Assembly: GCF_006539925.1 (NCBI RefSeq)
Contig: NZ_BJNY01000012.1
Location: 1 to 64,000, forward strand
Reading direction: 5' to 3'
DNA from: Glutamicibacter uratoxydans
GTDB lineage: Bacteria > Actinomycetota > Actinomycetes > Actinomycetales > Micrococcaceae
Length of the DNA: 64,000 nucleotides
Shown here one piece after another: positions 21,158 through 36,757 of the stretch (position 1 is its first letter; every line of letters starts with the position of its first letter). Under the pieces are notes generated by a model. It was not told the origin of the DNA. It did not search any database and saw only the letters and a list, made by a program, of their open reading frames with translations. The translations under genes and the position numbers were made by a program.

Positions 21158-21212
21158 GAAACTGGCCGGTGCGCCCACTTCGAAATGAAGTGGACGCACC
21201 GGCCAGTTTTTT
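21158..21212 (+). terminator. Rho-independent terminator after accE
   Basis: A long stem (about 22 bp with one internal C/A mismatch, arms at about 21159-21181 and 21187-21210) encloses a short loop and ends in TTTTTT. The stem's 5' flank is A-rich, so it can work on both strands. It would originally have separated accE from the convergent FHA gene, before the AT-rich segment arrived. Confidence 0.88.
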
Positions 21213-21220
21213 GCCAAGCG

Positions 21221-21250
21221 CTAGATCTGCGACAGGTCCTGATCCAGCAT
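21221..21250. repeat. Left copy of 30-nt direct repeat bounding the insertion (att-like)
   Basis: This stretch is identical to 25733-25762 at 29 of 30 positions. Read on the minus strand it encodes MLDQDLSQI and a TAG stop, exactly the C-terminus of the FHA gene at the other boundary. The single difference is synonymous (GAT versus GAC). It is best read as the displaced original 3' end of that gene, left behind when the intervening segment inserted. Confidence 0.8.
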
Positions 21251-21295
21251 CATGAGGCGGCTGGCAGAATGTCAGTGTTTTGGATCGTTATAGGT

Positions 21296-23785
21296 TCAGA
21301 CTCTGTTGTGAGAAACTGGGCTGCTCTGGGTAATAGCGCGGACAGTGAGCCAGGAAACTATAGCGCACAGCCCACAGAGTACAAGTGCCGTAAGGATAAT
21401 CAACAGCCATGGAAGCTCGAATGGAACCTGTGGTACTACGTAGCTGCCAATCACCATCGGAATTACCCCGGCAGCGGTTCCAACAAGCGCTGCAGTCACA
21501 GAAAGTACCAGGATCTGGCGCACAAGTACTCGACTGATCCATTGCGATGGAACACCATGTTGGCTGAGGGTATGTATCCATTTCCGCATTCCGGCAATCT
21601 GTCCGCGCGTGGCCAAGCTGGCAATGCTGACGGAAATGATGATGAGCATTGAGCTGATTCCCAGCAGTGCGGCATCGGGAATGACCGGAGGGTGTTCATA
21701 ATGCACCCCAGCTTGCTCTGGATTGATCCCGGCGTGAGTCAATTCTCGAAGGACTTCCTGCGAATCTTTCTCGGCCAGGTCTGTATAGACAAGGCTGGCC
21801 TTAAGCTGTGGCAAGGAAAGCTGTTCGGCAGTGGCTCTACTGACGAAACCAGCGGTGAATACGAACCATGGTGCTGGCTCTACCTCGGCAATGACGGCGG
21901 GGATGGTGCCATAGGTTTTATTACTGTTCACAGAGTCCTTGAGCGAGATGCTGTCGGGATCTGTGAGCGCTTCAGGATTAACCGTGATAAGGCCGCCACT
22001 AGTAAATGTTGCTTTTTCAATGTCGGTGAGTGGACGTTGGAACAGCCTTTCGAGGTCCTCGACGTCTTCGACTGCGAAGGTAACTCCATAGTCATTAGCG
22101 GAAGTCACATAGGATTCATCTCCTTTCGGCTTTTGATTCTTCGCTGTGACCAATAGTGTGCTCCACAGTTGTACCGGCTGCTGCTGAGCCAGTGCCGGCA
22201 CTTTCTCGGCCGCTTCGATGACTTCCGGGGATACCTGGTAAGACGGTGCTCCGTCGTTATCGAGAGTCAGCTGGCCTACGGGCGCAGTAATTGACAGTTT
22301 GGCTTCTTCGGCCGCGACAGCGCTGTTAACTGATGTCACCACACCCGCAGTGAGGCCGATGCCGATGGCAATGACTGCGAAGAATACGCTGGCCTGTCCT
22401 GAGTGTTTCTTGATGAGGTTGCGGGTCAGGATTGTGGATAGCTGATGCTGTGGCAGAGCATCACCGAGGAGGCGTGGCACTTCTGGTGCGGCAAGAAGCA
22501 GAATTCCCATTGCCAAACACACTGTTTGCAATATGTTCCACGAAGTGCGGGATGACAGCATCCAATAGATAGTCATTCCCAGTAGCGCGATCAGGGCTAT
22601 GCGGCGGTATGTCGCCCACTTATTTGATCTAGAAATATTGGCTTGTCGTGATGATTTTTTGGTGCGTGGCAGCGCACGCAAGGCGATGCTCCAGGCGCCG
22701 GCTACTATACCCAGCACCATGCCTACAGCTAATGCTGTGAATCCTGAAGTTGGAATCGCTATCGTCGGCATTGGCGCAGCGAACGTTCCAGCACCGGCAA
22801 CAGCAATGCCAAGCCCTGCCGCAGTTCCTGCCATCGCACCGGACCCGGAGCCGAGAAAACACCAGAGGGCGATGGGAGTTAGTGGTGCGCTCAGGGAGAG
22901 CCTTGATGCAGCTCCATTGCGAACTAAATTGGAGATAGCCGGTACGATGCGTCGATGTTGGGACAAGAACGTCAGAACAGCTGCGAAGGGGATAATCACC
23001 AAACTCGGAACCCAGAAGAGGATCGGTGATCGGTCAATCCATGGTCGCGGAAGCAGATTGATGACAACGTTCTCGGTCATGAGAAATTCAGCGTCAGAAG
23101 TCATCTCGTAGTTAGCTGCGGTAGCTGCCTCGGTAACGGATTTCTTGAAGTCGTCAAGATTATCCAGAGTTGGCAGGAGGACTTCGACTTTGCCATAGAC
23201 CCCAGTCAACGACGCGTCATTGGTGGGGTGCATCGTTGCCCAGGTGCCAGGGGCCGCTAACAGGAAGGTTCCGCCATATGCTTTGTCGCGTCCGGTACCC
23301 ACAATGGTGGCTTCGGCTTTGCCCAATAATTGCAGTGATCGCCCAATTTCGGGAGTACGGGCAGTATTGCCAATGACGAGTACCTCACCAGGGCGGGTGG
23401 GCCAACGGCCATTGTCCAGGACATAGGATTCGCCCATTGGGCCACCCCACTCAGCTTCGTAATAGGTCAGTCCATCATCTACCAAGCCGATGACTGGCAT
23501 GTCGGGGGCCATAAGGCCGACTGTTGCTGTGGTATCTGCTTTTCTGATGTCGTCGATGAACGTATTAGTGCCTGGGTCTCCCAACGGTACTGTGACTGGT
23601 GGCCGGTAGCTTGCGTCAAATCCATGGAGCCTGTATTCTACAGCGTGCTTTGGTGCGAGAACTTGGCTTCCAAAGAAGCTACTTACGGCCAAGACGAAGA
23701 ATGCTGCGGCGAAGCTCGGCAATGCACTGCGTAGTCGTGGGGTGGTGCGGGCAAATCGGCGGGCGAACCTCAGATACAGGTTCAT
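21296..23785 (-). CDS. FtsX-like ABC transporter permease
   Basis: An 829-aa membrane protein with a first transmembrane helix (residues about 18-40), a large extracytoplasmic domain (about 41-255) and a three-helix FtsX module. A central hydrophobic pair and a second extracytoplasmic domain with a second FtsX module at the C-terminus follow. This double-module layout is typical of MacB/LolE-like or peptide-related exporters that transmit force rather than import. The ATG at 23785 overlaps the ATPase stop (ATGA) and is preferred over a longer frame that would run into the ATPase gene. No substrate can be assigned; the small peptide gene upstream is a candidate. Confidence 0.85.
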   Translation of the reverse strand: MNLYLRFARRFARTTPRLRSALPSFAAAFFVLAVSSFFGSQVLAPKHAVEYRLHGFDASYRPPVTVPLGDPGTNTFIDDIRKADTTATVGLMAPDMPVIGLVDDGLTYYEAEWGGPMGESYVLDNGRWPTRPGEVLVIGNTARTPEIGRSLQLLGKAEATIVGTGRDKAYGGTFLLAAPGTWATMHPTNDASLTGVYGKVEVLLPTLDNLDDFKKSVTEAATAANYEMTSDAEFLMTENVVINLLPRPWIDRSPILFWVPSLVIIPFAAVLTFLSQHRRIVPAISNLVRNGAASRLSLSAPLTPIALWCFLGSGSGAMAGTAAGLGIAVAGAGTFAAPMPTIAIPTSGFTALAVGMVLGIVAGAWSIALRALPRTKKSSRQANISRSNKWATYRRIALIALLGMTIYWMLSSRTSWNILQTVCLAMGILLLAAPEVPRLLGDALPQHQLSTILTRNLIKKHSGQASVFFAVIAIGIGLTAGVVTSVNSAVAAEEAKLSITAPVGQLTLDNDGAPSYQVSPEVIEAAEKVPALAQQQPVQLWSTLLVTAKNQKPKGDESYVTSANDYGVTFAVEDVEDLERLFQRPLTDIEKATFTSGGLITVNPEALTDPDSISLKDSVNSNKTYGTIPAVIAEVEPAPWFVFTAGFVSRATAEQLSLPQLKASLVYTDLAEKDSQEVLRELTHAGINPEQAGVHYEHPPVIPDAALLGISSMLIIISVSIASLATRGQIAGMRKWIHTLSQHGVPSQWISRVLVRQILVLSVTAALVGTAAGVIPMVIGSYVVPQVPFELPWLLIILTALVLCGLCAIVSWLTVRAITQSSPVSHNRV

Positions 23786-24474
23786 GAGGCGGATCCTGCC
23801 GGTACAAGTAGCGAGCCGTCGCGCACTTCCAGAACACGTGTGGCGTATTTGCGGCATTCGGGGTCATGGGACGCGACGATAACAAGTACGCCGCTGGCAG
23901 CAATTTCTGACAAGATTTCGTACACGGTTTGTGCGCTGCGGGAATCTAGCGAGCCAGTTGGCTCGTCGGCAAGAAGAATCTTTCTGTTGCCGATCAATGC
24001 ACGGGCGATGCCAACTCGTTGCCGTTGCCCTCCTGACATTTGATGAGGGAATCGTTTGGCAAGATCGGCAAGGCCAACTCGGTCAAGCTCGTGCAGGGCG
24101 GCAGTAAGTGCAACGTCTAAGGGCGTTTCGTCAACTTCCAGTGGTAGGGCTACATTTTCGACGGCGGTGAATTCGTCGATGAGCGCGTCATCTTGGTGCA
24201 CCATTCCAACGACAGTGCGTCGGAGCTTGGTTTTATTCTCTTGGCTCATTGTTCCAAGATCGTTTCCGGCGACGGTGATTTCTCCTGACGATGGTTCGAC
24301 GAGTCCGGCGAGCAGGTTCAGGATGGTGGTTTTTCCTGAGCCGCTTGCGCCATGAAGGCAAATGAATTCTCCTTCTTGAGCTGTGAAATCAATGGAGTCG
24401 ACAGCGACAACTGTTTCGGCTTCACTGGTATAGATTCTGCTGACGCCTTGGATGCGAATCTGCGTCGTCTCCAT
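23782..24474 (-). CDS. ABC transporter ATP-binding protein, MacB/LolD type
   Basis: A 230-aa ATPase with Walker A GASGSGKTT, Q-loop, signature MSGGQRQRVGIARAL, Walker B ILLADEPTG and the switch His in VIVASHD. The ATG at 24474 is chosen because AAAGGA lies 8 nt before it; the frame is open 57 nt further upstream. It overlaps the permease start. Low G+C and codon use differ from surrounding genes, in line with acquisition by transfer. Confidence 0.92.
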   Translation of the reverse strand: METTQIRIQGVSRIYTSEAETVVAVDSIDFTAQEGEFICLHGASGSGKTTILNLLAGLVEPSSGEITVAGNDLGTMSQENKTKLRRTVVGMVHQDDALIDEFTAVENVALPLEVDETPLDVALTAALHELDRVGLADLAKRFPHQMSGGQRQRVGIARALIGNRKILLADEPTGSLDSRSAQTVYEILSEIAASGVLVIVASHDPECRKYATRVLEVRDGSLLVPAGSAS

Positions 24475-24678
24475 TGATTTAATCCTTTGCTCTTGATTTT
24501 CGATGATCTGGCAGCCGTTCTTAGTTTTCATTGAGGAGTCTTGGTATTCGTCGTAGTACGAAATTCTTGCCCTACAGGGCCCGGGGACAATACGATCTTT
24601 CCCGCGTCCTCATACTTCTTTTGCTAGTCAGTTTTTGTGAACTCTGGAGAAGTATGCGCATAAATCTGCCACGTCTTT
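24475..24678. other. Gap between peptide gene and ABC ATPase gene
   Basis: These 204 nt separate the small peptide gene from the ATPase gene. Only short imperfect inverted repeats were seen (for example GCCCT/AGGGC near 24570), with no convincing terminator. Read-through from the peptide gene into the transporter genes is therefore possible. Confidence 0.4.
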
Positions 24679-24876
24679 TTATTCGCCACAGACTTCCTTG
24701 AGTCGAATCCAAAAGCCACTGCGTTCCTCAATGACAGTGAATTTGCCCTGCGTTGCCATACAGAAACTCATGTAGTTCGCATTTTGTTGGCTCGGTGATG
24801 CATGAGCTCCAGCATCCACGATGGCTATCACGAGGTCCGTTGATTCTATTGCAGATGATGCTAATTTTCTTTTCAC
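24679..24876 (-). CDS. Small peptide of unknown function, candidate secreted peptide
   Basis: A 65-aa frame beginning GTG-AAA-AGA with GAAGGGA 6 nt upstream, the best ribosome binding site in the AT-rich block. The product has a KRK start, a hydrophobic stretch LVIAIVDAGAHA (residues 15-26) that could be cleaved after AHA, and a tail with two cysteines (C39 and C63) about 24 residues apart. It lies upstream of the ABC ATPase and FtsX permease genes on the same strand, so a peptide/transporter module is plausible. Glu11 and Asp14 make the region a poor classical signal peptide. No known bacteriocin family was recognised. Confidence 0.45.
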   Translation of the reverse strand: MKRKLASSAIESTDLVIAIVDAGAHASPSQQNANYMSFCMATQGKFTVIEERSGFWIRLKEVCGE

Positions 24877-24939
24877 CGCTCGTCCCTTCCAGAAGGGATT
24901 TTTGGCCCCAATAAAATTCGTTCCGCTCTTGCAGATAAG

Positions 24940-24983
24940 AAGTATTTTTATCAGCTTTAGGGAAAAGCATCAAGAGATGTCAA
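24940..24983 (-). promoter_or_regulatory. Candidate promoter for the small peptide gene
   Basis: On the minus strand TTGACA (24983-24978) and an overlapping alternative TTGATG (24973-24968) precede TAAAAA (24950-24945). TTGATG to TAAAAA gives a 17-nt spacer. The start codon is about 70 nt downstream. AT-rich surroundings make chance matches likely. Confidence 0.3.
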
Positions 24984-25732
24984 AATCAACAACCTGCACG
25001 CGATTTGAAATCTTCATATTCGTAATAAGAGATTCGATTCACGAAATCTATTGCATTTTCCGCCTAAGCTCCACTCTGGACACGAGGAGCATAGATAATG
25101 TTGGTTTTCAGAGTGATATTGAATTGGAAATTGGAAGTCGCCAAAGAAGATGTTCCGGTTCGCAACTAATAGATTCCACGGGTTATCAAGTTGTATCCCA
25201 AGCGCCTCATCGGGCGGTCAGCAGCAAGTCAGGCCGAGTGGTTCTTCTCGTGCTCCGCATTAACGGCATGAATAGATTTCAGCCGAATTAAACTTTCGCG
25301 AAGTTGAGCATGTTACGCATAGCTAACAGAACTTTGAACATGCTGTTATCTCGGTGCCGCATAGTTTTCGCAGTTCACGTTGAGATCTATGCCCGACTTC
25401 GCAGCAACTGACTGGTGCAAGGCAGACACGAACTCAAAGTTCTGCACTCTTTAGAGCTTGATGGCAGCACTCACCCGTCGCAACTTTCAACGATTCGAAC
25501 AGTAGAGTGGAGCATATGTCGTTTCAGCCATGTGGCTACTACAACGGAAAATTAAGGCACTTCTGGTGCGCCGGCTTTCCATGCAAAATTACTCGGATCC
25601 GAGTTATGCCCTTCGATACTTGTCTCCAAAAATTGCGGGTACCGAAACATTCAGAGACATCACATCATGTAAGTTCGTTGAGAGCAGACCATCCGTCAAG
25701 TAATGCCTGGATAAACGTTTGCTCTCCATGTA
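24984..25732. other. AT-rich region without a supported gene
   Basis: About 750 nt of low-G+C DNA between the peptide-gene promoter and the right repeat. Two plus-strand frames overlap it (24821-25291 and 25507-25782), but neither has a ribosome binding site, recognisable domains or neighbourly orientation, and the first runs antisense over the peptide gene. No tRNA, inverted repeats of note or transposase remnant was recognised. It may hold decayed sequence or a non-coding RNA; nothing can be asserted. Confidence 0.5.
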
Positions 25733-25762
25733 CTAGATCTGCGACAGGTCCTGGTCCAGCAT
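25733..25762. repeat. Right copy of 30-nt direct repeat (3' end of FHA gene)
   Basis: This copy forms the last nine codons and stop of the FHA gene and matches 21221-21250 at 29/30 positions. Retention of an intact reading frame at this side is what a gene-3'-end integration would give. Confidence 0.8.
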
Positions 25763-26446
25763 CGGCAGATCCGCGCGCGTGACCAGGTGCGAGCTCACGG
25801 CATGTTCCACAAGCCTGGCTTTGCGATTGCTGGCCAGCTTGCCCGGGCCGCCACGCAGGCCAGCGATGCCGTTCTTGTCCAGCTTGTCGCAGACGTTGTC
25901 CAACTTGCGATTGAACTTGGTGATCCCCCAGCCAAGCCGTTCAGCCGCGGCGGCGCTGGACGGGATGGCGCTGAGCCCGGTGCCATCACGGCGCAGCATC
26001 GGTTCGGCCAATGCCACCACCAAGGCACGCTGACTCTCCGTGAGCAGCACCGGCCCTATGGTCGTGGCCCCGTCAGGGTCAGCAACAAACTGTTCTTGGC
26101 GGAACGCCGGCTGGGAGATGTGGATGGCAAATTCATAGGTGGTCGGCCCGGCGGTGAAGACCACCGAGGTGCGGCTGAACACCAGCGGAATGCGCCCGCC
26201 GGGCGACAGCCAGGCCTGCAGGCCTCCAGTCCTGTCGGCAATGGTCGCCGTCAGCCGGGCCCCGACGTTGGCAAGCCACCACAGTCCCTCATGTCGCGAA
26301 ACAGTGAGGAACTGGCGGTGCAGGTACGGGTTGTCGTCGATGTCCAGATCCCCTTCACGGCCTACCGTGAAAACCTGCACTTCATTCACGGGGAAGAACT
26401 CCCCGCAGTATTCAATTTTCGCTACATCCGGCATCTGCTCGCTCAT
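25733..26446 (-). CDS. FHA-like domain protein with C-terminal helical domain
   Basis: A 237-aa cytoplasmic protein. The N-terminal half has an FHA-like core (FTVGREGDLDIDDNPYLHRQF) but a degenerate remainder, so phosphothreonine binding is uncertain. The C-terminal half (about 135-230) is a helical, winged-helix-like domain found with actinobacterial FHA proteins (LTESQRALVVALAEPMLRR). The ATG at 26446 follows GGGTGG; a GTG at 26455 is an alternative start. It is the last gene of the kinase cluster, 24 nt after the kinase. Its final 30 nt are duplicated at 21221. Confidence 0.75.
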   Translation of the reverse strand: MSEQMPDVAKIEYCGEFFPVNEVQVFTVGREGDLDIDDNPYLHRQFLTVSRHEGLWWLANVGARLTATIADRTGGLQAWLSPGGRIPLVFSRTSVVFTAGPTTYEFAIHISQPAFRQEQFVADPDGATTIGPVLLTESQRALVVALAEPMLRRDGTGLSAIPSSAAAAERLGWGITKFNRKLDNVCDKLDKNGIAGLRGGPGKLASNRKARLVEHAVSSHLVTRADLPMLDQDLSQI

Positions 26447-26470
26447 CTCTGCCACCCGTTCTCACTCATC

Positions 26471-28009
26471 TCAGCTCTTCGCACAGTAACTCGCCGCCGC
26501 AGAGACATCTCCCGTGGCCTTGACGACCTTGACCTCAATGCAGGTCTCCGAACCGGCCTTGGGCACGCTCACCGAGTTTTCCTTGGTGCGCTTGAGCTCA
26601 CCGGTCTTGGTGGCAGTCACCGTGGCCCACTGGTAGAAGTCCCCGTCATCAGGATCCGGATTCTTCCAGCTGAACTTGACGGTGTCGCCGTTGACCGCCG
26701 AGCTGAACTTCTCCACGGGTTTCACACCCGCCCCAAGCAATGCATCTGCAGGCGTATCCGAAGCGATCACCGGGCCCTTGGGCGTCGCTTCCTCTTCGGG
26801 AGCGCCAAAGACATTCACCGCCACGGCAATCGCAACGATCACACAGATCGCGGCAATGGCCAGGCCCAGAATCTTTGGAAGCGGCTTGCGGACCACCGGA
26901 ACCACCGGTTCCCGCTCCTGTTCCTCAGGGTTGGGAACTTCCTGGTCATCACGCAACGGCGCCCGGAAACGCTGCTTCACAGGTTCTTCCACCTGTTCTG
27001 GCGGCGCCTCAACCGAGGCGCGCTGCCCCGGAACCCGGGAGATCAGCGGCTCTCCTCCCAGCGGCAGCTGGGCATCGTCAATGGACACGACTCGGCGCAC
27101 CCTGGTGGCCTCGCCCCCGAAATCCTGGGTGTCTTCGCCGCTAAGCTCTTCAAGAATCTCGAATGGCGTGACCGACAGTCCCAGATCAGCCTGGATCCGC
27201 TGCAGCGACTTGGCCAGCTGGGCCGCGGAGGCAAAGCGGTTTTCCGGGTCTTTGGCCATCGAGACGGCGAGCGCCTGGTTCAGTGCCTCGGGGACATCGG
27301 GGCGGTCCAGATTGACCAGCGGCTCATCCAGGATCCGCTGGATTAGCGTGGGCTGCGAATTGTCCTGTCCGGGCCGCACGAATGGCGAATGCCCGGCCAG
27401 GACCGTGTAGAGGGTGGCTCCCAGCGAGTAGACGTCCATTGACACGCTGGCCTGGTGTCCTGAGATGAAGGCCTCCGGCGCCGACCATGGAACCGACAAC
27501 CCCATCACGTCCGAGCCCTGGGCCCCGGAGATGCCGAAGTCGGTGAGCGCCGGACGGTTGTAGTCGGTGGTCAGCACGTTGGCGGGCTTGATATCGCGGT
27601 GGATGATGCCAGCTTGGTGCGCCGTTTGCACCGCGGAGCACAGCTGGACGCCCAGGGCGAGCACCTCGGCGACGCTCAGCACGTTCTTGCGGTAGCGCGC
27701 ATCAAGGCCGGGCCGCGAGCAGTACTCCATGGCCAGGTAGGAGCGGGAGTCTTCGGTGATCTCCGCCTGGTAGATGGTGACGATATAGGGGTGGGTGGAC
27801 AAAGATGCCATGAGGTTGGCTTCGGCTTCGAAGCGTTCCCTCGCGTCTTTGACGCCCATGTCTGCCAGCAGAACCTTCACCGCAACGTTGCGGCGGGGCC
27901 GGTGCTGCTCATAGAGGAAGACGTCTGAAAATCCGCCGGAGCCCAGTGGCTTGACGTAATTGAACCCGTCGATCACCGGCGCCGGAGCGGGCGGACGGTG
28001 AGAGCTCAC
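26471..28009 (-). CDS. Transmembrane Ser/Thr protein kinase (PknB/Pkb2-like)
   Basis: A 512-aa Hanks-type kinase. The kinase domain spans about residues 12-275: G-loop LGSGGFSDVF, VAVKVL lysine, catalytic loop HRDIKPANVL, TDFGISG and an APEA motif. A proline- and acid-rich juxtamembrane linker, one transmembrane helix (about 375-397) and a short extracellular domain with two Cys follow. PASTA repeats are absent, so it is not the usual PknB muropeptide sensor. GTG start overlaps the upstream FHA gene stop (GTGA). Partner phosphatase and FHA proteins are encoded in the same operon. Confidence 0.93.
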   Translation of the reverse strand: MSSHRPPAPAPVIDGFNYVKPLGSGGFSDVFLYEQHRPRRNVAVKVLLADMGVKDARERFEAEANLMASLSTHPYIVTIYQAEITEDSRSYLAMEYCSRPGLDARYRKNVLSVAEVLALGVQLCSAVQTAHQAGIIHRDIKPANVLTTDYNRPALTDFGISGAQGSDVMGLSVPWSAPEAFISGHQASVSMDVYSLGATLYTVLAGHSPFVRPGQDNSQPTLIQRILDEPLVNLDRPDVPEALNQALAVSMAKDPENRFASAAQLAKSLQRIQADLGLSVTPFEILEELSGEDTQDFGGEATRVRRVVSIDDAQLPLGGEPLISRVPGQRASVEAPPEQVEEPVKQRFRAPLRDDQEVPNPEEQEREPVVPVVRKPLPKILGLAIAAICVIVAIAVAVNVFGAPEEEATPKGPVIASDTPADALLGAGVKPVEKFSSAVNGDTVKFSWKNPDPDDGDFYQWATVTATKTGELKRTKENSVSVPKAGSETCIEVKVVKATGDVSAAASYCAKS

Positions 28010-29670
28010 GGCAGGTCCTTAAAGCTGAGGGTTACCCCGTCGCCCAGGTCTGCAACGTCGCCGCTGAGCAGCAGTACTGCCTCCTTGGTGCCCAGGCGGC
28101 GCGGGGACTGCCCCTCGCGCAGCAGCACGGTGCCGTTGGTGGCGCCGAGGTCCACCAGTTCAACATGCCACCCATCGATCTTCACCTGTACGTGGGACCG
28201 GGAAATATCGTTGTTGGGGCTGAGCACCTTCATCAGCTTCGGTTCAGAGGCACCGGCTGGCCCCTTGTAAACAGGCTGGCGTCCGATGATCACCGAACGG
28301 GTCAGCAGGTGGGTGGAGCCCGGGCCGGAGGACTGTTCGGTGACGAACATGCGGCCCATGGATGGCTGGCGCACCCTGGTGGCCTGCCCGCTGAGCTTCA
28401 CATGGCAGGTGCGGCAGCTGGTGGATTCGGGAGGGTTGGGGTGTCCCCCGCTGCAGACTCTAGCAAGGATCATCTGGTGCGAGGAGATGGTGCTCATTTC
28501 CGGTTCTGCGGCAGGCTGTGCCGGCGCAGAGGCTCGGCTGCGCAGCGAGGTGCTGTAGACGGTGTCCTCGTTGTCCACTTCTTCATTCTCAGGCAGCACG
28601 GAAACCTTGGAGGCGCGGGCCTTGATGATGGTATCCGCGTTGTCGGGTTCTTCCGTCTGGTATTGGGTGCTCGGATCGTCGCGCTTGCCCAGCAGGATGC
28701 TGGCCAGCGAGACTTCCTCGGAAATTCCCGAGCTTTCTTCTGCCTCGGGATCCATGGTGTCCGCGTCGTCTGCCGCGGCCGCAGGGACCTTCTTGCTGCC
28801 CTGCTGCTGGCGTGCAGAGTCGGCGTTCGGTTCCAGATTGGCTGAAGTTCGCTTCATTGCCACTGTGGCGAGCTCATTGGCCGCTGGAGCCGCGGCCTCC
28901 GGCTTCTTGGCATCTGGCGCAGGCGCTGTTGGCGTTTCGGATGAAACCGCCTTCTTCTGCACTGCCGGTGCTGACGGTTCTTGGGCAGGCGTTGCAGAGG
29001 CCTTGGGGGCAGCTGAAGTGGCAGGTGCGGCTGCTGCTGCCGTCTCCTGCTTCTTCGGCTCGGCGGCGCGCTTGCCTGCCGGCTTTACTGCGAGCTGGGT
29101 TTCTTCGGGCTCAGCCTCGCTGGCTGCGTCTGCAGCCCGCCGTCCGCGTGCATCCTCTACCGCTTCGTCTATCACTTTCTGAGCCTCGGCCGAAATTTTG
29201 CCGGCCGCGGCTGTTTGCTCGGATCCGAATGACAGCTTGCTGGCGAGCACCATGCCTTCGGTGATGTGCAGTACCGGGCCGGCGGCTGCTTCTGCCTGCA
29301 CTGCTCCGGAATCCAACGACCACGCCGAAGTCTCCGAGCAGCGCTGCTCGGTCCAGGTGGCAATCCCCGAAGCACTGATTTGGTGGGAGCCGCGTTCATC
29401 GGTGTAGTTGAACTGCACTGCTCCGCGGACCATGACGTGGGGTGCCTTGGCGCGGCTGACCATGGCGAAGTCCGGCATGGCGGTAATTTTCATGCCCACG
29501 GTGCCAAGCAGCGCGGACAGCAGCGTTTCGAGGTCTTCGGTGCCGTCCATGGCGTCCCAAAGGCTCTTGACGGTATCGGCGGCGGTGTCCGGCGGCAGCA
29601 CCACCACATGATTGGCTGAGACCAGTGCGTACCAGTCGCCGGGAAGGTAGCGAAGGGTGTTCATTGTCAT
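28006..29670 (-). CDS. FHA-domain protein with zinc-ribbon-like motif
   Basis: A 554-aa protein. The N-terminal region (about 1-160) is a conserved domain of unknown function, followed by a long Ala/Pro/Glu/Lys-rich linker (about 170-400). A four-Cys motif (CSGGHP ... CRTCHVK) and a canonical FHA domain (about 455-554; IIGRQPVYKG, SRSHVQVKIDGW, DLGATNGTVLLREG) complete it. Thr-rich segments with TDTI/EDTVY-type acidic sites in the linker are candidate kinase targets. It overlaps its neighbours by 4 nt at both ends. Confidence 0.85.
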   Translation of the reverse strand: MTMNTLRYLPGDWYALVSANHVVVLPPDTAADTVKSLWDAMDGTEDLETLLSALLGTVGMKITAMPDFAMVSRAKAPHVMVRGAVQFNYTDERGSHQISASGIATWTEQRCSETSAWSLDSGAVQAEAAAGPVLHITEGMVLASKLSFGSEQTAAAGKISAEAQKVIDEAVEDARGRRAADAASEAEPEETQLAVKPAGKRAAEPKKQETAAAAAPATSAAPKASATPAQEPSAPAVQKKAVSSETPTAPAPDAKKPEAAAPAANELATVAMKRTSANLEPNADSARQQQGSKKVPAAAADDADTMDPEAEESSGISEEVSLASILLGKRDDPSTQYQTEEPDNADTIIKARASKVSVLPENEEVDNEDTVYSTSLRSRASAPAQPAAEPEMSTISSHQMILARVCSGGHPNPPESTSCRTCHVKLSGQATRVRQPSMGRMFVTEQSSGPGSTHLLTRSVIIGRQPVYKGPAGASEPKLMKVLSPNNDISRSHVQVKIDGWHVELVDLGATNGTVLLREGQSPRRLGTKEAVLLLSGDVADLGDGVTLSFKDLP

Positions 29671-30476
29671 TCCTCTATCTTGATCTCAAGCTGTTCACGC
29701 GGAACTGTAATCTCTACATCCAATGGCTCGTCAATTTCAGTGCTTGCCACATCCGCAACAATCACGCTTACATTATCGCGCCCGCCATGGGCTAATGCAC
29801 AGAGCACCAGCTCATCGGCTGCTTGCTGCGGGTCGAGGAAGCGGCGCAGGATCTCCTGGATCTGCTCGTCTCCCAGTTCGCTGCTCAATCCGTCCGAGCA
29901 GACCAGCAGCCTGTCGGTCGAGTCGATGGGCAGCATCCAAAAATCCGGGCGGCTGTCTGCCCTCATCCCCAATGCCCTGGTGACGACATTGCGCTTGGGA
30001 TAGGTGGCGGCTTCCGCTGTGGTGAGCTCGCCGCGGTCCAGCAGCTCCTGCACCTCTGAATGGTCGATGCTGATCTGCTCCAACACCCCTCCGCTCAGCC
30101 GGTAGGTGCGCGAGTCTCCAATGTTGAACACCAGCCATTGGGCAGTGGAGGCCGAGCTGACAACTGCGGCTCCTGTCAGCGTCGTTCCGGCGCGGGCCGA
30201 ACCTGCCTCGATGATCGCCTGGTCCGCCTCGGTGAGCAGCTGGTCCATGGACTGTGCGGTAAATTCGCCGCCGGTCCTGGCGTAGCCTTCCGCCACGACC
30301 TTCAAGCACAGCGAGCTGGCGACTTCACCGGCTTCATGCCCGCCCATGCCATCGGCCACGGCAACCAGCGAGTCAAGGGCCAGCATGCTGTCTTCGTTCA
30401 GCACCCTGCGCAGCCCCTTGTCGGTGGCGCAGCCGAATTTCAGCGTGGGGATGACCCCGGTGGGAAACACGCTCAC
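29667..30476 (-). CDS. PP2C-family Ser/Thr phosphatase (PrpC-like)
   Basis: A 269-aa PPM phosphatase with intact motifs: RRVLNEDS, AVADGMGGHEAGE, NIGDSRTYRLSGG and GGRDNVSVIV. The GTG at 30476 is chosen because it overlaps the RDD-FHA stop (GTGA). It would reverse phosphorylation by the kinase two genes downstream. It is about 40 residues shorter than the second PP2C of the window and lacks that protein's central loop. Confidence 0.9.
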   Translation of the reverse strand: MSVFPTGVIPTLKFGCATDKGLRRVLNEDSMLALDSLVAVADGMGGHEAGEVASSLCLKVVAEGYARTGGEFTAQSMDQLLTEADQAIIEAGSARAGTTLTGAAVVSSASTAQWLVFNIGDSRTYRLSGGVLEQISIDHSEVQELLDRGELTTAEAATYPKRNVVTRALGMRADSRPDFWMLPIDSTDRLLVCSDGLSSELGDEQIQEILRRFLDPQQAADELVLCALAHGGRDNVSVIVADVASTEIDEPLDVEITVPREQLEIKIEE

Positions 30477-32020
30477 GAATTGCTGACCTTGAAATAGCGT
30501 TCGCCAAAGTGCACGATGCTGCCGAAAACCGCGGCGGCAGGGGTGCCGGCCTCCAGCTTCCGCTCCGCACCGTCGGCATTCGAAATATAAGTGCCGTTGG
30601 CAGAGCCCTGGTCGGTGACCCAAACGCCCTGCGGGCCTGCGGCCACCAGGAGGTGGGTTTTGGACACGGTGCGCTGCGGGTCGTCCACGACCAGCAGTTC
30701 GGCCACGTCCATGCCTTCGGCTGGCTGCGGGTTGCGGCCGATCAGCGCGCTTTCCTCCACGAGGATATCCGCCCCGTCGTCAAAGAGCAGGTGCACTTCA
30801 ACGTCAGCAGCAGGACGCAGCCTGGTCTCGCCCCCGTCCATGTCCGGATCGTACGTTGCAGGCTGAACAATTTCCGGCGCGGCGGCTGGCTGCTCCTTTG
30901 GTGGTGCGGCCGGTGCCTGAGCGGCGCTCGGCTCTTTGGCCGCCACTGGTTGTGAGGCTGCCTTTGGCTGGGCCTTTGGCTTGGCATCTTCCTTGGACGC
31001 AGCAGAGGCAGCAGCCGCGGCCGCTACTGGCGCCGCTTTTGCCGGGGCCTTGGCGGCAGCTGGTTTAGGGGCGGCCTTAGCCGCCGGCTTGGCAGCTGGC
31101 TTTGCCGGAGCCTTGGCTGGTGCAGCCGCCGCAGGTTTGGCTTCAGCCTTCGGCGCTGGTTCCGGCTTCTTCGCTCCGGGCACCGAGCTGATGACCTCTG
31201 GCTGGTCCGAGTCGGCGGCCGGCTTCTTCGCCTCAGGCTTGGCTGCAGGCTTAGCAGCCCCGTTCTTTGCCGCCGGAGCCTTGGCGGATGGAGTCTTGGC
31301 GGCTGGCTTCTTGGCTGGCGCAGGCTTGTTGGCGGCGGCAGGCTTCTTCGCCGCCGGAGCGGAATCCTTCGGCGCGGACTTGGCCTCTGCCTGGGAGGCA
31401 ATGTGGGTGCCCAGCGGCAGGATCATGCTGTGGGCCGCGTCCACATCGTGCTCCACTTCCACGTCGCCGTCCTTGAACTCGCGGCGTCCATTGGTGGCGG
31501 GAGGCGCAAAGGAGCTCGGCCCGTCGCTGCCGCCGGATACCAGCGGATTGCGCCCTGCCTTGATGTCGAACACCAGGGTGCCCGCCACCTTGTCATGCCA
31601 GCCCTGGCGCTTGCCGTTCTTGTCGAATTCATTGGAGGCAGCCATCAGGGCGGAGCCGATGATCGGGATGACCCCCGCCAAGCCGATCAGCAGCCGGCGC
31701 ACGATCGCGCCCTTCCACTTGGGAGCTTGGCCTTCCATGTCGGTGGTGCGGATCTTCATCACCACATTGCCCAGGGTCTTGCCCGAGGTGGCCTCCCACC
31801 ACCACAGGAACAAGGTGTAGCCGAGGCTCACGGCCAGCAGCACCAGGTTCATGGCCATCATCTGGCCGATGATCTCCGGCGCCACGGTCGCCTGGACCGC
31901 CTTGCCCATGACCCGCGGCATGAACACCAGCCAGAGGATGAACAGCGGCAGCCCGTCGATCAGCCACGACAATACGCGCTGCGCGGTGCTGGCATCCACG
32001 AGTTTGAGTTGTGCGGCCAT
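30473..32020 (-). CDS. RDD membrane domain and FHA domain fusion protein
   Basis: A 515-aa protein. The N-terminal RDD domain (about residues 5-160) has three hydrophobic segments and a GKTLGNVVMKIR motif. A low-complexity Ala/Lys/Pro linker (about 210-395) leads to a C-terminal FHA domain (ALIGRNPQPAEG, SKTHLLV, DQGSANGTYISN). The linker is cytoplasmic if the FHA domain is, and could tether phosphoprotein partners near the membrane. It starts 2 nt after the transglutaminase-like gene. Confidence 0.85.
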   Translation of the reverse strand: MAAQLKLVDASTAQRVLSWLIDGLPLFILWLVFMPRVMGKAVQATVAPEIIGQMMAMNLVLLAVSLGYTLFLWWWEATSGKTLGNVVMKIRTTDMEGQAPKWKGAIVRRLLIGLAGVIPIIGSALMAASNEFDKNGKRQGWHDKVAGTLVFDIKAGRNPLVSGGSDGPSSFAPPATNGRREFKDGDVEVEHDVDAAHSMILPLGTHIASQAEAKSAPKDSAPAAKKPAAANKPAPAKKPAAKTPSAKAPAAKNGAAKPAAKPEAKKPAADSDQPEVISSVPGAKKPEPAPKAEAKPAAAAPAKAPAKPAAKPAAKAAPKPAAAKAPAKAAPVAAAAAASAASKEDAKPKAQPKAASQPVAAKEPSAAQAPAAPPKEQPAAAPEIVQPATYDPDMDGGETRLRPAADVEVHLLFDDGADILVEESALIGRNPQPAEGMDVAELLVVDDPQRTVSKTHLLVAAGPQGVWVTDQGSANGTYISNADGAERKLEAGTPAAAVFGSIVHFGERYFKVSNS

Positions 32021-32022
32021 CG

Positions 32023-34386
32023 CTAGTCCCCTGCCTGTTCGGTGTTCTTCGTGAGTTTGATGTTGTCCATGAACTTGGGATTCAGGTTGACCCTGCCCAG
32101 CAGTTCGTGGACCAGCGAGCGCGGTGAATACTTGGCGCGCAGCTTCTGCCAGGTGCCCATCTTCTCCCCCATCGCCGTGGACTGCCGTTGGACTTCTTCC
32201 CAGTATTCCTTGACTTCAGCCTCGGTGGGCTGCCGGGCTGAGAAGTTCGCCTCGTCGGCCCTGCGCGCCAGCGCATGGGCCTGCTCGTCCAGGGAGCTGA
32301 ATCCGGCGGCAAGCAGCGCCGCGTTCTCCCGGCGCGTGGCCCCCGCCTGGGTCATCACCCGGTGGTCGGTGGCTGCGCTGAGCAGCTCCTGCCAGCCGCC
32401 GTCGATCCGCTGCGAGGTGCTGCCGGAGGTTGCGCGCTTGGTGCGCCGCCGCTTCTTCAGCAGCGCGATCAGCAGGAACGGGGCCAACAGCACCAGGATG
32501 GACCCCAGGGCAATGGCAATGACCAGAATGATCTGCCCGTACTGGGCAATGAGGTTCTGCGGCTGCTCCTGCAGGGCCTGCGGATCCGGCGCCGTCTGCG
32601 GAGGCAGGTCCGGCACCTTCTGCGCTGGCGGAGGCGGCTGCAGCACCTGCGGCTGCGGCACGGCCTTGGGCTCCTTCTCCGGAGGGGTGGGCTCGTCGTT
32701 CTTGGTGGGCGTCGGATTGAACGGCACCCAGCCCAGGCCCTCGTAGTTGATCTCGACCCAGGCGTGCACGTCGGCGCCGGTGATCGCCACCGGCTGGGCA
32801 GGGTTGTACTGCCGCGGGTAGAAGCCCATCACCACGCGGGCGGGGATGCCCTGCTCGCGGGCCATGAGCACCATGGCGGCGGCGAACTGCTCGTCGTCGC
32901 CGATCATCTCCTTGGCCGAGAGCAGGCTGGTGATGCGCCCGGCGCCGTGCCCGGACAGCGACTGCGGTTCGCCTTCGGTGCCGTGGGAGAGGAAGCCGCC
33001 GGTGGACAGCGCTGTTTCCAGGCTGCGGATGCGATTCAGGTCTCCCTTGGAGGCGCCGATGAAGTCCACCGCCTTGGTGCCTGCCATGGGCGGCACATTG
33101 GCCAGCTTGGGCATGCGCAGCCCGCCGAGCTTGGCGTCGGAAAGCTCCTGGTCCCCCGGTGCCAGCGGGAACTGCACGTTCATCGAATAGCTGTCCCCCT
33201 GCTGCAGGCCCTGGGAGCTGAGCATGGTCTCCGCATCGGGGCTGTAGAACAGCGAACGGGCCAGCTCATCGCTGCGCGGGCCGCCCAGGTCGATGGATTC
33301 GAGCTTGCCGCCGCCGGGCACCCACACCCCGGAATAGCCGTCAACGGTGATCTGCAGCTTGCCCTCCGGGCGTTGGGCCTCGGAGGAGCCGGAGCGGATC
33401 TGCGTGGAGTCGCCCACCGGCGAGTAGCTGCCGCTGGATTCGGGATCCACGGTGAAGACCATGCCGTTGTAGGAGTCCAGCGCCGCCAGCCGGATGCGCT
33501 GGCCCTCGGGCAGGCCCTGCACGGTGAACAGCGTGGACTTGCTCATGGTCTTCACGTACTTGCGGAAGTCGGTCAGCGGGCTGGGATAGTCGTAGAGGTC
33601 CACCGGGGGCTCGAGCACATCTCGCAGCACCTGGCGCGGGCTGTTGGGGCTGAGCAGCGGGGTGGCCGCGGCGGTCAGCCCGCCGGCGCCCAGCAGCACC
33701 GCGGTGCCCAGCGCCACCCGGCGCAGCAGCAGCTCGCGGCTGCCCTTGGCTTCTTCGCTTCCGCGTTCCAGCACATCGCCGCCGGCGGGCAGCTGGCGGC
33801 CGATGTGCCGGCGCCAGGCCAGCCAGCCGATGAGCAGAGCAATGAACACCACCGAACGGGCGATGGGCAGCGGCACATTGCGGGTGCCGAAGATGATGCC
33901 GACCACGAACATCGCCAGCACGGGTATCACCGTGTAGTAGGCGCTGCGCAGATGCCAGGCGGCTAGCCCCGCCAGCAGCGAGGACAGCAGCGTGGAGAGG
34001 AAGGCGACGATCAGCACGCCGCCAAAGGAGCCCACCGGCGGGGCGACCGTGAGCATGTCCTTCCAGGACAGCACGACGCCGCTAAGCAGGGTGCGCAGCG
34101 ATTCCAGGTTGGGCAGCACAAAGTAGCTTGCCTCGCGCGGGACCGCCAGCGGGGTGCCCAGCACCAGGTACACCAGTGCGAAGGCTCCGGCGGTCTGCCA
34201 GGTTCCCCAGCGGAAGTACACATTGGCCCAGGCCAGGCCCAGGCCCGCGATGATGCCGCCCAGCGAGGCGAGCAGGAAGCTGGTGCTGCCGCCATAGGCG
34301 TCCCAGAGGCCGAACGCCCCCAGGGCCAGGGCGGCGCCCAGCACCGCCGCGTCGACGCCGTAGCGCCACAGTGGAAGTTTCTTCAT
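32023..34386 (-). CDS. TgpA-like (DUF3488/transglutaminase-fold) membrane protein, catalytic residues lost
   Basis: A 787-aa protein with a DUF3488 multi-helix N-terminus (about residues 1-240), a large extracytoplasmic transglutaminase-like region (about 250-570), a Pro/Gln-rich stretch, one C-terminal transmembrane helix (about 615-645) and a cytoplasmic DUF4129-like tail. The fold's triad should be Cys-His-Asp. The usual G-x-C-E-Q-F reads GDDEQF, so Asp498 replaces Cys, and the Asp of the WVPFDPTP motif is Asn557. His541 is kept (ADVHAW). A non-enzymatic role is therefore likely. The ATG at 34386 overlaps the DUF58 stop (TGATG). Confidence 0.85.
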   Translation of the reverse strand: MKKLPLWRYGVDAAVLGAALALGAFGLWDAYGGSTSFLLASLGGIIAGLGLAWANVYFRWGTWQTAGAFALVYLVLGTPLAVPREASYFVLPNLESLRTLLSGVVLSWKDMLTVAPPVGSFGGVLIVAFLSTLLSSLLAGLAAWHLRSAYYTVIPVLAMFVVGIIFGTRNVPLPIARSVVFIALLIGWLAWRRHIGRQLPAGGDVLERGSEEAKGSRELLLRRVALGTAVLLGAGGLTAAATPLLSPNSPRQVLRDVLEPPVDLYDYPSPLTDFRKYVKTMSKSTLFTVQGLPEGQRIRLAALDSYNGMVFTVDPESSGSYSPVGDSTQIRSGSSEAQRPEGKLQITVDGYSGVWVPGGGKLESIDLGGPRSDELARSLFYSPDAETMLSSQGLQQGDSYSMNVQFPLAPGDQELSDAKLGGLRMPKLANVPPMAGTKAVDFIGASKGDLNRIRSLETALSTGGFLSHGTEGEPQSLSGHGAGRITSLLSAKEMIGDDEQFAAAMVLMAREQGIPARVVMGFYPRQYNPAQPVAITGADVHAWVEINYEGLGWVPFNPTPTKNDEPTPPEKEPKAVPQPQVLQPPPPAQKVPDLPPQTAPDPQALQEQPQNLIAQYGQIILVIAIALGSILVLLAPFLLIALLKKRRRTKRATSGSTSQRIDGGWQELLSAATDHRVMTQAGATRRENAALLAAGFSSLDEQAHALARRADEANFSARQPTEAEVKEYWEEVQRQSTAMGEKMGTWQKLRAKYSPRSLVHELLGRVNLNPKFMDNIKLTKNTEQAGD

Positions 34387-35720
34387 CAAGCCACCGCCCG
34401 GCGCAGCATCAGGCCCAGCTCGTCGAGCTGGCCCAGGGTCAAAACATTCAATTCGCCGATCCGCGCCTGGGCAGGCTGCAGGCCCACCCCGCAGCGGATC
34501 GCGATGGCGCGCACGCCGAAGGGCACATGCTTGGATGCTTCGCGCAGCGCGCGGGCGGTGGTGCCGGCGCCGGTGACCAGGAACATCACCGAGACTCCCG
34601 GCACCGCGTCCACGGTGCTGCGCACCACGTCGGTCAGCGTGCGGCGCCCGGAGGCGCCTGCCAGCCGGGTCAGCCCGTCCATCATGTCGCGCCCACTGGC
34701 GGTGCGCACCGGCCCGGACTGCGTCATGATTTCCAGTTTGCGCTGGTCCAGGGCCGCCTGCAGGCCGATGGAGGCGGCCACTGACACTGCCAGCTCGAAG
34801 TCTTCCTCGCCCAGCGCCGCCGAGTATTCGTCGAGGTTGGTGGTCAGCGCCACCGCAAGGTGGGAGCGGCGGGTCTGCTCGAATTGGCGCACCATCAAGT
34901 CCCCGGTGCGCGCACTGGACTTCCAGTGGATGTGCCGCCGGTCATCGCCCGGCACATAGTCGCGCAGGGCGTGGAAGGACACATCGGAGCTGGACAGCTC
35001 CCTGGTGGGCATGCCTTCAAGGTCGCGGATGAATCCTGCCGAGGAGCCGTCGAGAACTGTGGTCTTCGGGTGGACGAACAGCTCGTAGTTCCCGGTCCAC
35101 TTCACCTGGCGGCGCAGCAGCGCAAAGGGGTCCTGGCGCACCGAGCGCACCGGGCCCACCTGCAGCACCTGGCGGCGGTGGGTGGGGATGGTGAACAGGT
35201 CTTCATAGTCTTTGCCTGCTGAAAGCTGCGGGATGCGGAACTGGGCCACGCCGGCTCCCACGGGCAGCTCCATGACCACCGCGGCAGAGGTGCTCTTGGC
35301 CTGGTTGAGGACTTTCAGCGCGCCGACCGCCCGCTGGCCCACTGCCACGCGGGTGCGATTCAGGTCCAGTTCCACCTTGTAGTCGTGGCTGCCCAGCACG
35401 AAGGCCACGGCGATCAGCAGCAGCAAGGTGGCCATGAACGCGCCCATCAGCGCCTCCTGCCAGCCGAACGCGGCGCCGAGGATCCACAGCAGCACCGCGG
35501 TGCCTGCCACCACGAAGCCCAGGGCGGAGACGACCGAGCTGACCGGCTCGAGGTAGCGCTGGGCCAGGGCCCGGGCGGCGCGCAGCCATGGGGTGCACAG
35601 CTGGCGCACCAGGGCGAAGACCTCGCCGGCCAGGGTGGCGGAAACCTTGGCCGCCCCGGCCAGGGACGCCGCTGGGTTCTTCGCGTCGTGTTGTTTGGAC
35701 CGTCTGCCGCGTCGGCTCAT
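34386..35720 (-). CDS. DUF58-domain protein
   Basis: A 444-aa protein with a basic N-terminus, two transmembrane helices (about 65-115) and a beta-rich region. The DUF58/vWA-like core (residues about 240-330) includes the signature FHALRDYVPGDDRRHIHWKSSARTG. DUF58 proteins are regularly encoded beside MoxR ATPases and transglutaminase-like proteins and are thought to assemble or mature partners. Both ends overlap neighbouring genes (ATGA with the MoxR stop; TGATG with TgpA). Confidence 0.9.
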   Translation of the reverse strand: MSRRGRRSKQHDAKNPAASLAGAAKVSATLAGEVFALVRQLCTPWLRAARALAQRYLEPVSSVVSALGFVVAGTAVLLWILGAAFGWQEALMGAFMATLLLLIAVAFVLGSHDYKVELDLNRTRVAVGQRAVGALKVLNQAKSTSAAVVMELPVGAGVAQFRIPQLSAGKDYEDLFTIPTHRRQVLQVGPVRSVRQDPFALLRRQVKWTGNYELFVHPKTTVLDGSSAGFIRDLEGMPTRELSSSDVSFHALRDYVPGDDRRHIHWKSSARTGDLMVRQFEQTRRSHLAVALTTNLDEYSAALGEEDFELAVSVAASIGLQAALDQRKLEIMTQSGPVRTASGRDMMDGLTRLAGASGRRTLTDVVRSTVDAVPGVSVMFLVTGAGTTARALREASKHVPFGVRAIAIRCGVGLQPAQARIGELNVLTLGQLDELGLMLRRAVA

Positions 35721-36745
35721 CGAGAGCTGTCCTCTGCCAGCTCGTCCTGCGTGGTGCTGCCGCGGCGGGTCGGTGCGGCGGTGGCGCGCAGCACCGCGTC
35801 GATGACCGCGGCGGCGGTGGCGCCGCTGAATTCTGCCTCTGGGTCAAGCACCAGGCGGTGGCTGAACACGTGCTGGGCCAGTTCCTTCACGTCGTCGGGC
35901 AGCACGTAGTTGCGGCCCTGGGAGGCGGCCCAGACCTTGGCTGCGCGCACCATGGCCAGCGCGCCGCGCACGGAGACGCCCAGGCGGGTTTCCGGGGCTT
36001 CGCGGGTCGCTTCGCACAGCGCGGCAACATAGTCCAGCACCGCGTCGTCCACGTGGACGCTGGCGGCCAGGTCTGCCATTTCGGCGATGGCCTCGGTGGT
36101 GATCACCGGGGAGAGCGCGGCGGAGCGGTCGCGCAGGGCGCTGCCGCCCAGCAGCTGCACGGTGGCCTCGCGGTCCGGGTAGCCGATGGAGGTCTTGATC
36201 AGGAAGCGGTCAAGCTGCGCCTCGGGCAGCCGGTAGGTGCCTGCCTGCTCGATGGGGTTCTGGGTGGCGATGACCATGAACGGGCGCGGCTGGGTGTAGG
36301 TGGCGCCGTCCACGGTGACCTGGCCTTCTTCCATGACTTCCAGCAGCGCTGACTGGGTCTTGGGCGAGGCGCGGTTAATTTCATCGGCCAGCACCAGGTT
36401 GGCGAAGATCGGCCCGTGGTGGAACTCGAACTCCTGGGTGCGCTGGTCGTAGATGGTGATGCCGGTGACATCCGAGGGCAGCAGGTCGGGGGTGAACTGG
36501 ATGCGCGAGTGGCTGCCCTTCACGGTGGCCGCCAGGGAGCGGGCGAGCATGGTCTTGCCGGTGCCGGGGGCGTCCTCCAGCAGCACGTGGCCCTCGGCCA
36601 GCAGCGCGGTGAGCACCAGTTCGATGGTCTGGGTTTTGCCCAGCACCGATTTGCCCACGTTGGCAACCAGCTTGGCGAAGGTTTCCTGGTACCACTGCGC
36701 CTGCTCGGTGCTCATGCTCATGTAGTTCTGCTCCTCATTGTTCAT
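35717..36745 (-). CDS. MoxR-family AAA+ ATPase
   Basis: A 342-aa AAA+ ATPase. Walker A is APGTGKTMLARS, Walker B is LVLADEINRASP, and sensor 1 lies in VIATQNPIEQAGTYRLPEAQLDRF, the typical MoxR block. MoxR proteins act as chaperone-like remodellers, often with vWA/DUF58 partners such as the next gene. The start at 36745 has TAGGAG at 9 nt; an internal ATG (residue 9) after GAGGAG is an alternative. It starts 12 nt after the Fn3 gene. Confidence 0.93.
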   Translation of the reverse strand: MNNEEQNYMSMSTEQAQWYQETFAKLVANVGKSVLGKTQTIELVLTALLAEGHVLLEDAPGTGKTMLARSLAATVKGSHSRIQFTPDLLPSDVTGITIYDQRTQEFEFHHGPIFANLVLADEINRASPKTQSALLEVMEEGQVTVDGATYTQPRPFMVIATQNPIEQAGTYRLPEAQLDRFLIKTSIGYPDREATVQLLGGSALRDRSAALSPVITTEAIAEMADLAASVHVDDAVLDYVAALCEATREAPETRLGVSVRGALAMVRAAKVWAASQGRNYVLPDDVKELAQHVFSHRLVLDPEAEFSGATAAAVIDAVLRATAAPTRRGSTTQDELAEDSSR

Positions 36746-36757
36746 TGTCTTGTTCTC

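Follow-up and report, generated by a model that had tools for sequence, protein, structure and literature searches.

A low-G+C insertion bounded by a 31-nt duplication of the 3' end of an FHA gene in Glutamicibacter uratoxydans: a candidate integrase-less element remnant

What placed 4.5 kb of low-G+C DNA between two copies of the last bases of a gene? The question arises in a 64,000-nt stretch of DNA of Glutamicibacter uratoxydans (assembly GCF_006539925.1, contig NZ_BJNY01000012.1, positions 1 to 64,000), hereafter called the window. There, a segment of 4481 bp (21252-25732) lies between accE and a gene for a 240-aa FHA-like protein (25733-26455, minus strand), and both edges of the segment carry a copy of the FHA 3' end. 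A first-pass annotation had described an insertion of lower G+C content bounded by a 30-nt repeat with one synonymous change, had recognized the target as an FHA gene with a restored reading frame, and had seen no recombinase in the segment. These descriptions were borne out, and the repeat was found to extend to 31 nt. Our preferred answer, which we hold with slightly more belief than doubt, is that the segment represents what is left of an integrative element, without an integrase and similar to a cis-mobilizable element (CIME), that entered at the FHA 3' end.

The two copies of the direct repeat, at 21221-21251 and 25733-25763, are identical at 30 of 31 positions. The sole mismatch (A/G) gives GAT and GAC, both coding for Asp, and is thus synonymous in the FHA frame; it divides the repeat into exact blocks of 21 bp and 9 bp. 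The 21-bp block exceeds every other exact direct repeat of the window in length. When the window was simulated 60 times with a first-order Markov model, the longest such repeat averaged 15.7 bp and never exceeded 19 bp. No third copy with at least 21 of 31 matches was found in the window on either strand, and no other copy of the 30-mer with up to three mismatches was present in the 3.79-Mb genome, where these two copies make up the total. The gene-proximal, attR-like copy (minus strand) consists of the last codons of the FHA gene and finishes on the last base of its stop codon, so that the reading frame of the gene is restored. The distal, attL-like copy on the accE side (minus strand) reads ...LDQDLSQI-stop, its outer edge likewise being occupied by this stop codon. 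A 31-nt repeat at both edges of a low-G+C stretch is far beyond chance. A misassembly at the repeat was thought unlikely, judging from the shortness of the two exact blocks.

The insert is distinct in composition from its surroundings, with 51.7% G+C compared to 64.3% in the 10 kb on its left and 65.7% in the 10 kb on its right. The lowest value among 202 other windows of 4481 bp was 56.7%. Inside the insert, G+C is 54.0% in the ABC/FtsX part described below and 45.6% in the gene-poor remainder (24532-25732). Third-position G+C, calculated on mechanically delimited open reading frames (ORFs), is 0.52-0.55 in both genes of the insert and 0.88, 0.79, 0.78 and 0.73 in the neighboring long ORFs (accD, FHA, kinase and second FHA gene, respectively).

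The locus was then compared in a genus set made up of the window's genome and 17 congeners, all species-level representatives. The FHA gene was found in six of the congeners. In five of these (G011, G013, G014, G015 and G016) it is the convergent neighbor of accE, with 79-93 bp from stop to stop. When the insert is subtracted from the window, the stop codon of the left copy lies 77 bp from that of accE. This gap holds a hairpin (21159-21209, inverted repeat I1), which would stand between the convergent accE and FHA genes in the empty arrangement; by eye, the accE-FHA spacers of the congeners are also hairpin-like. The permease gene carried by the insert was absent from all 17 congeners, every candidate having been scored. 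Because the arrangement is empty in five of the six FHA-bearing congeners and the permease is found in none of the 17, the insert must have been acquired.

In the sixth FHA-bearing congener (G007), a different segment of about 2.5 kb separates accE from the FHA gene (L026:12424-14958). Read by eye, without a family search, it contains one gene resembling an acetyltransferase and small ones resembling lipoproteins. That this cargo might be another element using the attachment site of the window was considered and rejected, as no matching repeat bounds it. DNA has entered this convergent accE-FHA gap on more than one occasion.

Two genes were recognized in the insert, both on the minus strand. 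The first encodes an ABC ATPase of the LolD/MacB type (249 aa, 23782-24531; PF00005, E 2.4e-34), which matched the LolD, FtsE, MacB and L_ocin_972 models, each time under the cut-off of the model. Its identification as a Lactococcin-972-type bacteriocin export ABC protein (TIGR03608) was rejected, with 171.2 bits against a cut-off of 254.85. The second encodes an FtsX/MacB-type permease (829 aa, 21296-23785) with a weak match to PF02687 (6.2e-5; 23.5 bits, under the 25.5 cut-off) and none among PDB sequences. In the remaining stretch (24532-25732), no gene was recognized by DNA searches or by a six-frame Pfam scan with X at stops, whose single hit, ResT-TelK at E 0.21, was regarded as fortuitous. 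No RNA family was matched. An automatic scan counted one promoter-like site for 3.8 expected and eight terminator-like sites for 4.5 expected, and was of no help.

Site-specific integration at the 3' end of a gene would account for the repeat, for its boundary falling precisely on the stop codon and for the restoration of the gene. A short sequence of the element would have recombined with the last 31 bases of the FHA gene, so that the element entered there, leaving one copy of the repeat at each junction and restoring the FHA reading frame. We infer that the repeat was made by a recombinase whose gene would then have been lost, with the ABC-FtsX pair and about 1.2 kb of gene-poor DNA remaining. 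A transposon with target-site duplication was also considered and rejected. When 450 bp and 432 bp from the inner ends were compared, no exact 9-mer, direct or inverted, was common to both, and the only transposase match in the insert was a P-loop cross-match between the ABC ATPase and phrog_296 ("DNA transposition protein", 2.7e-5). Moreover, the target duplications that transposases ordinarily make are shorter than 31 nt.

Several observations weigh against a site-specific integration, and this mechanism, which the first-pass annotation had proposed, was not demonstrated. Apart from the phrog_296 and ResT-TelK matches given above, neither the two insert genes nor the ORFs and six translated frames of the tail matched a recombinase or relaxase family (Pfam, NCBIfam, PHROGs and six-frame scans); four tail ORFs had no match at all in PHROGs. 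At a greater distance, PF00589 had no match on the window's contig and five in the whole genome, one of them a fragment. No repeat-like site was found near these five in the stretches examined, where the best scores were 18-20 of 31. The 30-mer was also absent from 394 other genomes of the family (up to three mismatches) and, as an exact match, from viral contigs. The proximity of the 30-mer to integrases, for which the first-pass annotation had suggested a search, was not observed, and no intact related element was found by these routes. The resolvase family PF00239 gave no match at E 0.1 in the whole genome, other recombinase families not having been searched genome-wide.

The attachment site of a tyrosine recombinase is built as an imperfect inverted repeat whose two arms enclose a short crossover region. 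In the left copy, arms matching at 8 of 10 positions surround 9 nt, a score that was reached in 102 of 2000 shuffles; the score of the right copy was reached in 1188 of 2000. The core symmetry expected for such a recombinase therefore appears weak. The target of a tyrosine recombinase is usually, though not strictly, conserved across hosts, and the homologous FHA ends of the six congeners match the repeat at only 11-13 of 31 positions. Hence, an uninterrupted accE-FHA junction, predicted by the first-pass annotation, does exist in relatives, but without the single 30-mer that was to be found there. Its prediction of different cargo at the same site met a similar fate: other cargo is present in G007, but such a repeat is not, and a shared attachment site is unconfirmed. 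Finally, the genus set includes no strain of the same species.

Some of these points would be accommodated by break repair, which is the main rival and a reasonable one, although we consider it unlikely. A staggered double-strand break at the FHA end would have been filled in and a foreign fragment end-joined, producing the 31-bp duplication without any site-specific enzyme. Such a capture would require no recombinase in the insert, no conservation of the site in congeners and no occurrence of it elsewhere, as was found in the family genomes and viral contigs. It would also agree with the tolerance of the accE/FHA gap to insertions, since G007 received its cargo without a matching repeat. However, random fill-in would rarely end on a stop codon (1-2% of cases, by an estimate that was not computed), and target duplications of 31 bp are unusual for end joining.

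Homology-assisted recombination, which we hold to be distinctly less probable than break repair, would have involved a strain in which an FHA 3' end was already joined to the cargo. Of the two crossovers, one would have fallen within the FHA gene and the second, an illegitimate one, close to accE; together they would have left part of the FHA end duplicated. The FHA tail speaks for such an event: it reads QDLSQI in the window and is acidic in all six FHA-bearing congeners, so that the tail itself may be imported. The patchiness of the flanking FHA/kinase cluster, present in 7 of 18 genomes, points in the same direction. On the other hand, the hairpin spacer and the accE side are intact, with a gap of the expected size, and the precise 31-nt copy at the far end would have to be a further coincidence.

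The unusual tail also allows a bolder form of site-specific integration, to which we assign little credence. An unrecognized family of integrases or elements in Glutamicibacter would use the non-conserved FHA 3' end and would rewrite the C-terminal tail of the protein on integrating. If this were true, QDLSQI would be borne by the element from an earlier round and would have replaced the acidic tail, and insertion would tune the kinase/phosphatase signaling cluster.

The last alternative is an ancestral segment lost in relatives, the repeat being due to chance or to an FHA gene duplicated in tandem. It is barely credible even though the comparison is limited to species-level representatives. 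The two findings that the first-pass annotation would have held against an insertion, retention of the same 4.5 kb by all relatives and an FHA tandem duplication, were not made: the permease is missing from every congener, and the FHA protein has a single match in the genome, with no further one in the 3 kb surrounding the left copy. In addition, the insert is low in G+C and no exact repeat of 21 bp appeared in the simulations.

The FHA protein itself matched no family in Pfam, NCBIfam or PHROGs, and four protein records, including ones from Glutamicibacter nicotianae and Arthrobacter sp. MYb214. A structural model built from a 5-sequence alignment was of moderate confidence (mean pLDDT 70, pTM 0.51). 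Its best PDB matches were FHA domains, led by FHA-1 of M. tuberculosis Rv1747 (E 1.6e-3, probability 1.00; none at or below 0.001). Despite the lack of a Pfam match, the 240-aa protein is thus predicted to be FHA-like in fold, with a helical C-terminal half. The surrounding cluster contains a Ser/Thr kinase, a second FHA protein with a Pfam FHA match, and a protein that we take to be a PP2C phosphatase, recognized without a family search. This FHA/kinase/phosphatase cluster adjoins accE (25733-43105) and is patchy, the seven Glutamicibacter-group genomes that carry it including the window's. In the 11 congeners without the FHA gene, accD-accE is present and no FHA or kinase match follows it in the approximately 10 kb examined. 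In nine of them the first ORF of more than 500 aa after accE is, by eye, a relative of the window's 555-aa protein (43899-45566); at L087 and L088 a relative of this protein lies about 2 kb further on, as found with the L094 protein as query.

The source of the cargo was sought among wider samples. Permease relatives with 24-28% identity occurred in 5 of the 394 other family genomes and, at a stricter E limit, in 1 of 395 others in a phylum sample and 1 of 296 others in an order sample. In these searches and in that for the tail DNA in the family, at most two to three candidates were scored per genome, so that weak relatives may escape. The permease was found in no plasmid, and its eight pattern matches in viral contigs were not confirmed by tblastn (0 of 8). 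For the tail DNA, plasmids yielded nothing, a single phage with two records yielded a match of 39 nt (E 0.008), and the family genomes yielded only 26-nt matches, in four of them.

Some of these relatives belong to a recurrent cluster in a few actinobacterial genomes, consisting of genes for an I36 peptide, an ABC ATPase and an FtsX permease (L060:5124-8659, L061:856-4380, L062:4938-8479 and L063:10807-14348). In L060, L061 and L062, as in the window insert, the ATPase gene directly precedes the permease gene, and sequence identity to the window's proteins is 42-50% for the ATPases and 24-25% for the permeases. All four clusters start with a secreted I36-family peptide gene directly before the ATPase gene, the peptide being above the Pfam cut-off in L061, L062 and L063 and just under it in L060 (20.5 vs 21.1 bits). 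A fifth locus, L059, holds an I36-like fragment by eye. In contrast, no such peptide is recognizable in the window insert, where no frame of the gene-poor stretch upstream of the ATPase gave an I36 match. At the place where the relatives encode the secreted peptide, the insert has a doubtful 65-aa ORF (24679-24876, minus strand) with a GTG start and AAGGGA 6 nt upstream. This ORF matched no family (Pfam, NCBIfam, PHROGs), could not be aligned to the I36 peptides (hhalign probability 0.1), and by eye its ribosome-site region folds into a small hairpin. It is therefore not claimed as a gene, and was rejected as an I36-like peptide. Since the relatives adjoin secreted I36-family peptide genes, we infer that the transporter of the insert probably serves in peptide export or in protection from a peptide. 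No paper combining I36, an ABC transporter and a bacteriocin came up in a search of open-licence text.

A decayed tyrosine-integrase fragment, with two stops, below the cut-off and with a tRNA-Arg gene nearby, was noted elsewhere in the window's genome (G000:C10:68408-68662; L065). It is likely another element remnant.

Read as a decayed integrative remnant, the segment would be of an ordinary kind, at a site that is unusual and apparently confined to one lineage; among the titles and abstract starts listed from open-licence PMC text, no description of this locus was seen. Should the repeat prove to be an attachment site, it would show gene-end integration in a variable regulator gene, one missing from 11 of the 17 congeners sampled, and the accE/FHA gap would be a place where Glutamicibacter genomes gain cargo. 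To our knowledge, few integrase-less remnants have been described outside streptococci, and the segment would add one. Its value lies mainly in the cataloguing of mobile elements.

The closest known systems are the CIMEs of Streptococcus, described in excerpts of two papers as decayed remnants of integrative and conjugative or integrative and mobilizable elements (ICEs or IMEs), with att-like flanks and cargo and without recombination genes (PMC7563491, PMC5704250). The classical CIMEs measure 1.2-13 kb and lie in composite islands at the 3' ends of rpmG, rpsI, fda and rplL, according to the excerpt of the first (PMC7563491). In the window, similarly, a small cargo lies between direct repeats (putative att sites, at both edges), a gene 3' end is restored, and no recombination or mobilization genes were found in the insert. 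The differences are that the window's host is an actinobacterium, that no functional relative, tandem ICE/IME or integrase of such specificity was found, and that the site is the non-conserved tail of a gene, whereas the sites of CIMEs, in those excerpts, are the 3' ends of the four genes above and of a tRNA-Lys gene (PMC7563491, PMC5704250). Because its descent from an ICE or IME is putative, we propose that the segment works like a CIME and resembles one in anatomy, and do not claim membership. Integration at the 3' end of a protein-coding gene also has an actinobacterial parallel in PAISt of Streptomyces turgidiscabies, in the excerpt consulted a large, modular and transferable island at the bacA 3' end, with site-specific recombination at an 8-bp palindrome (PMC4057263). 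The window insert differs from PAISt by its size of 4.5 kb, its 31-nt repeat and the absence of any recombinase seen, and would share with it a gene end as the point of entry.

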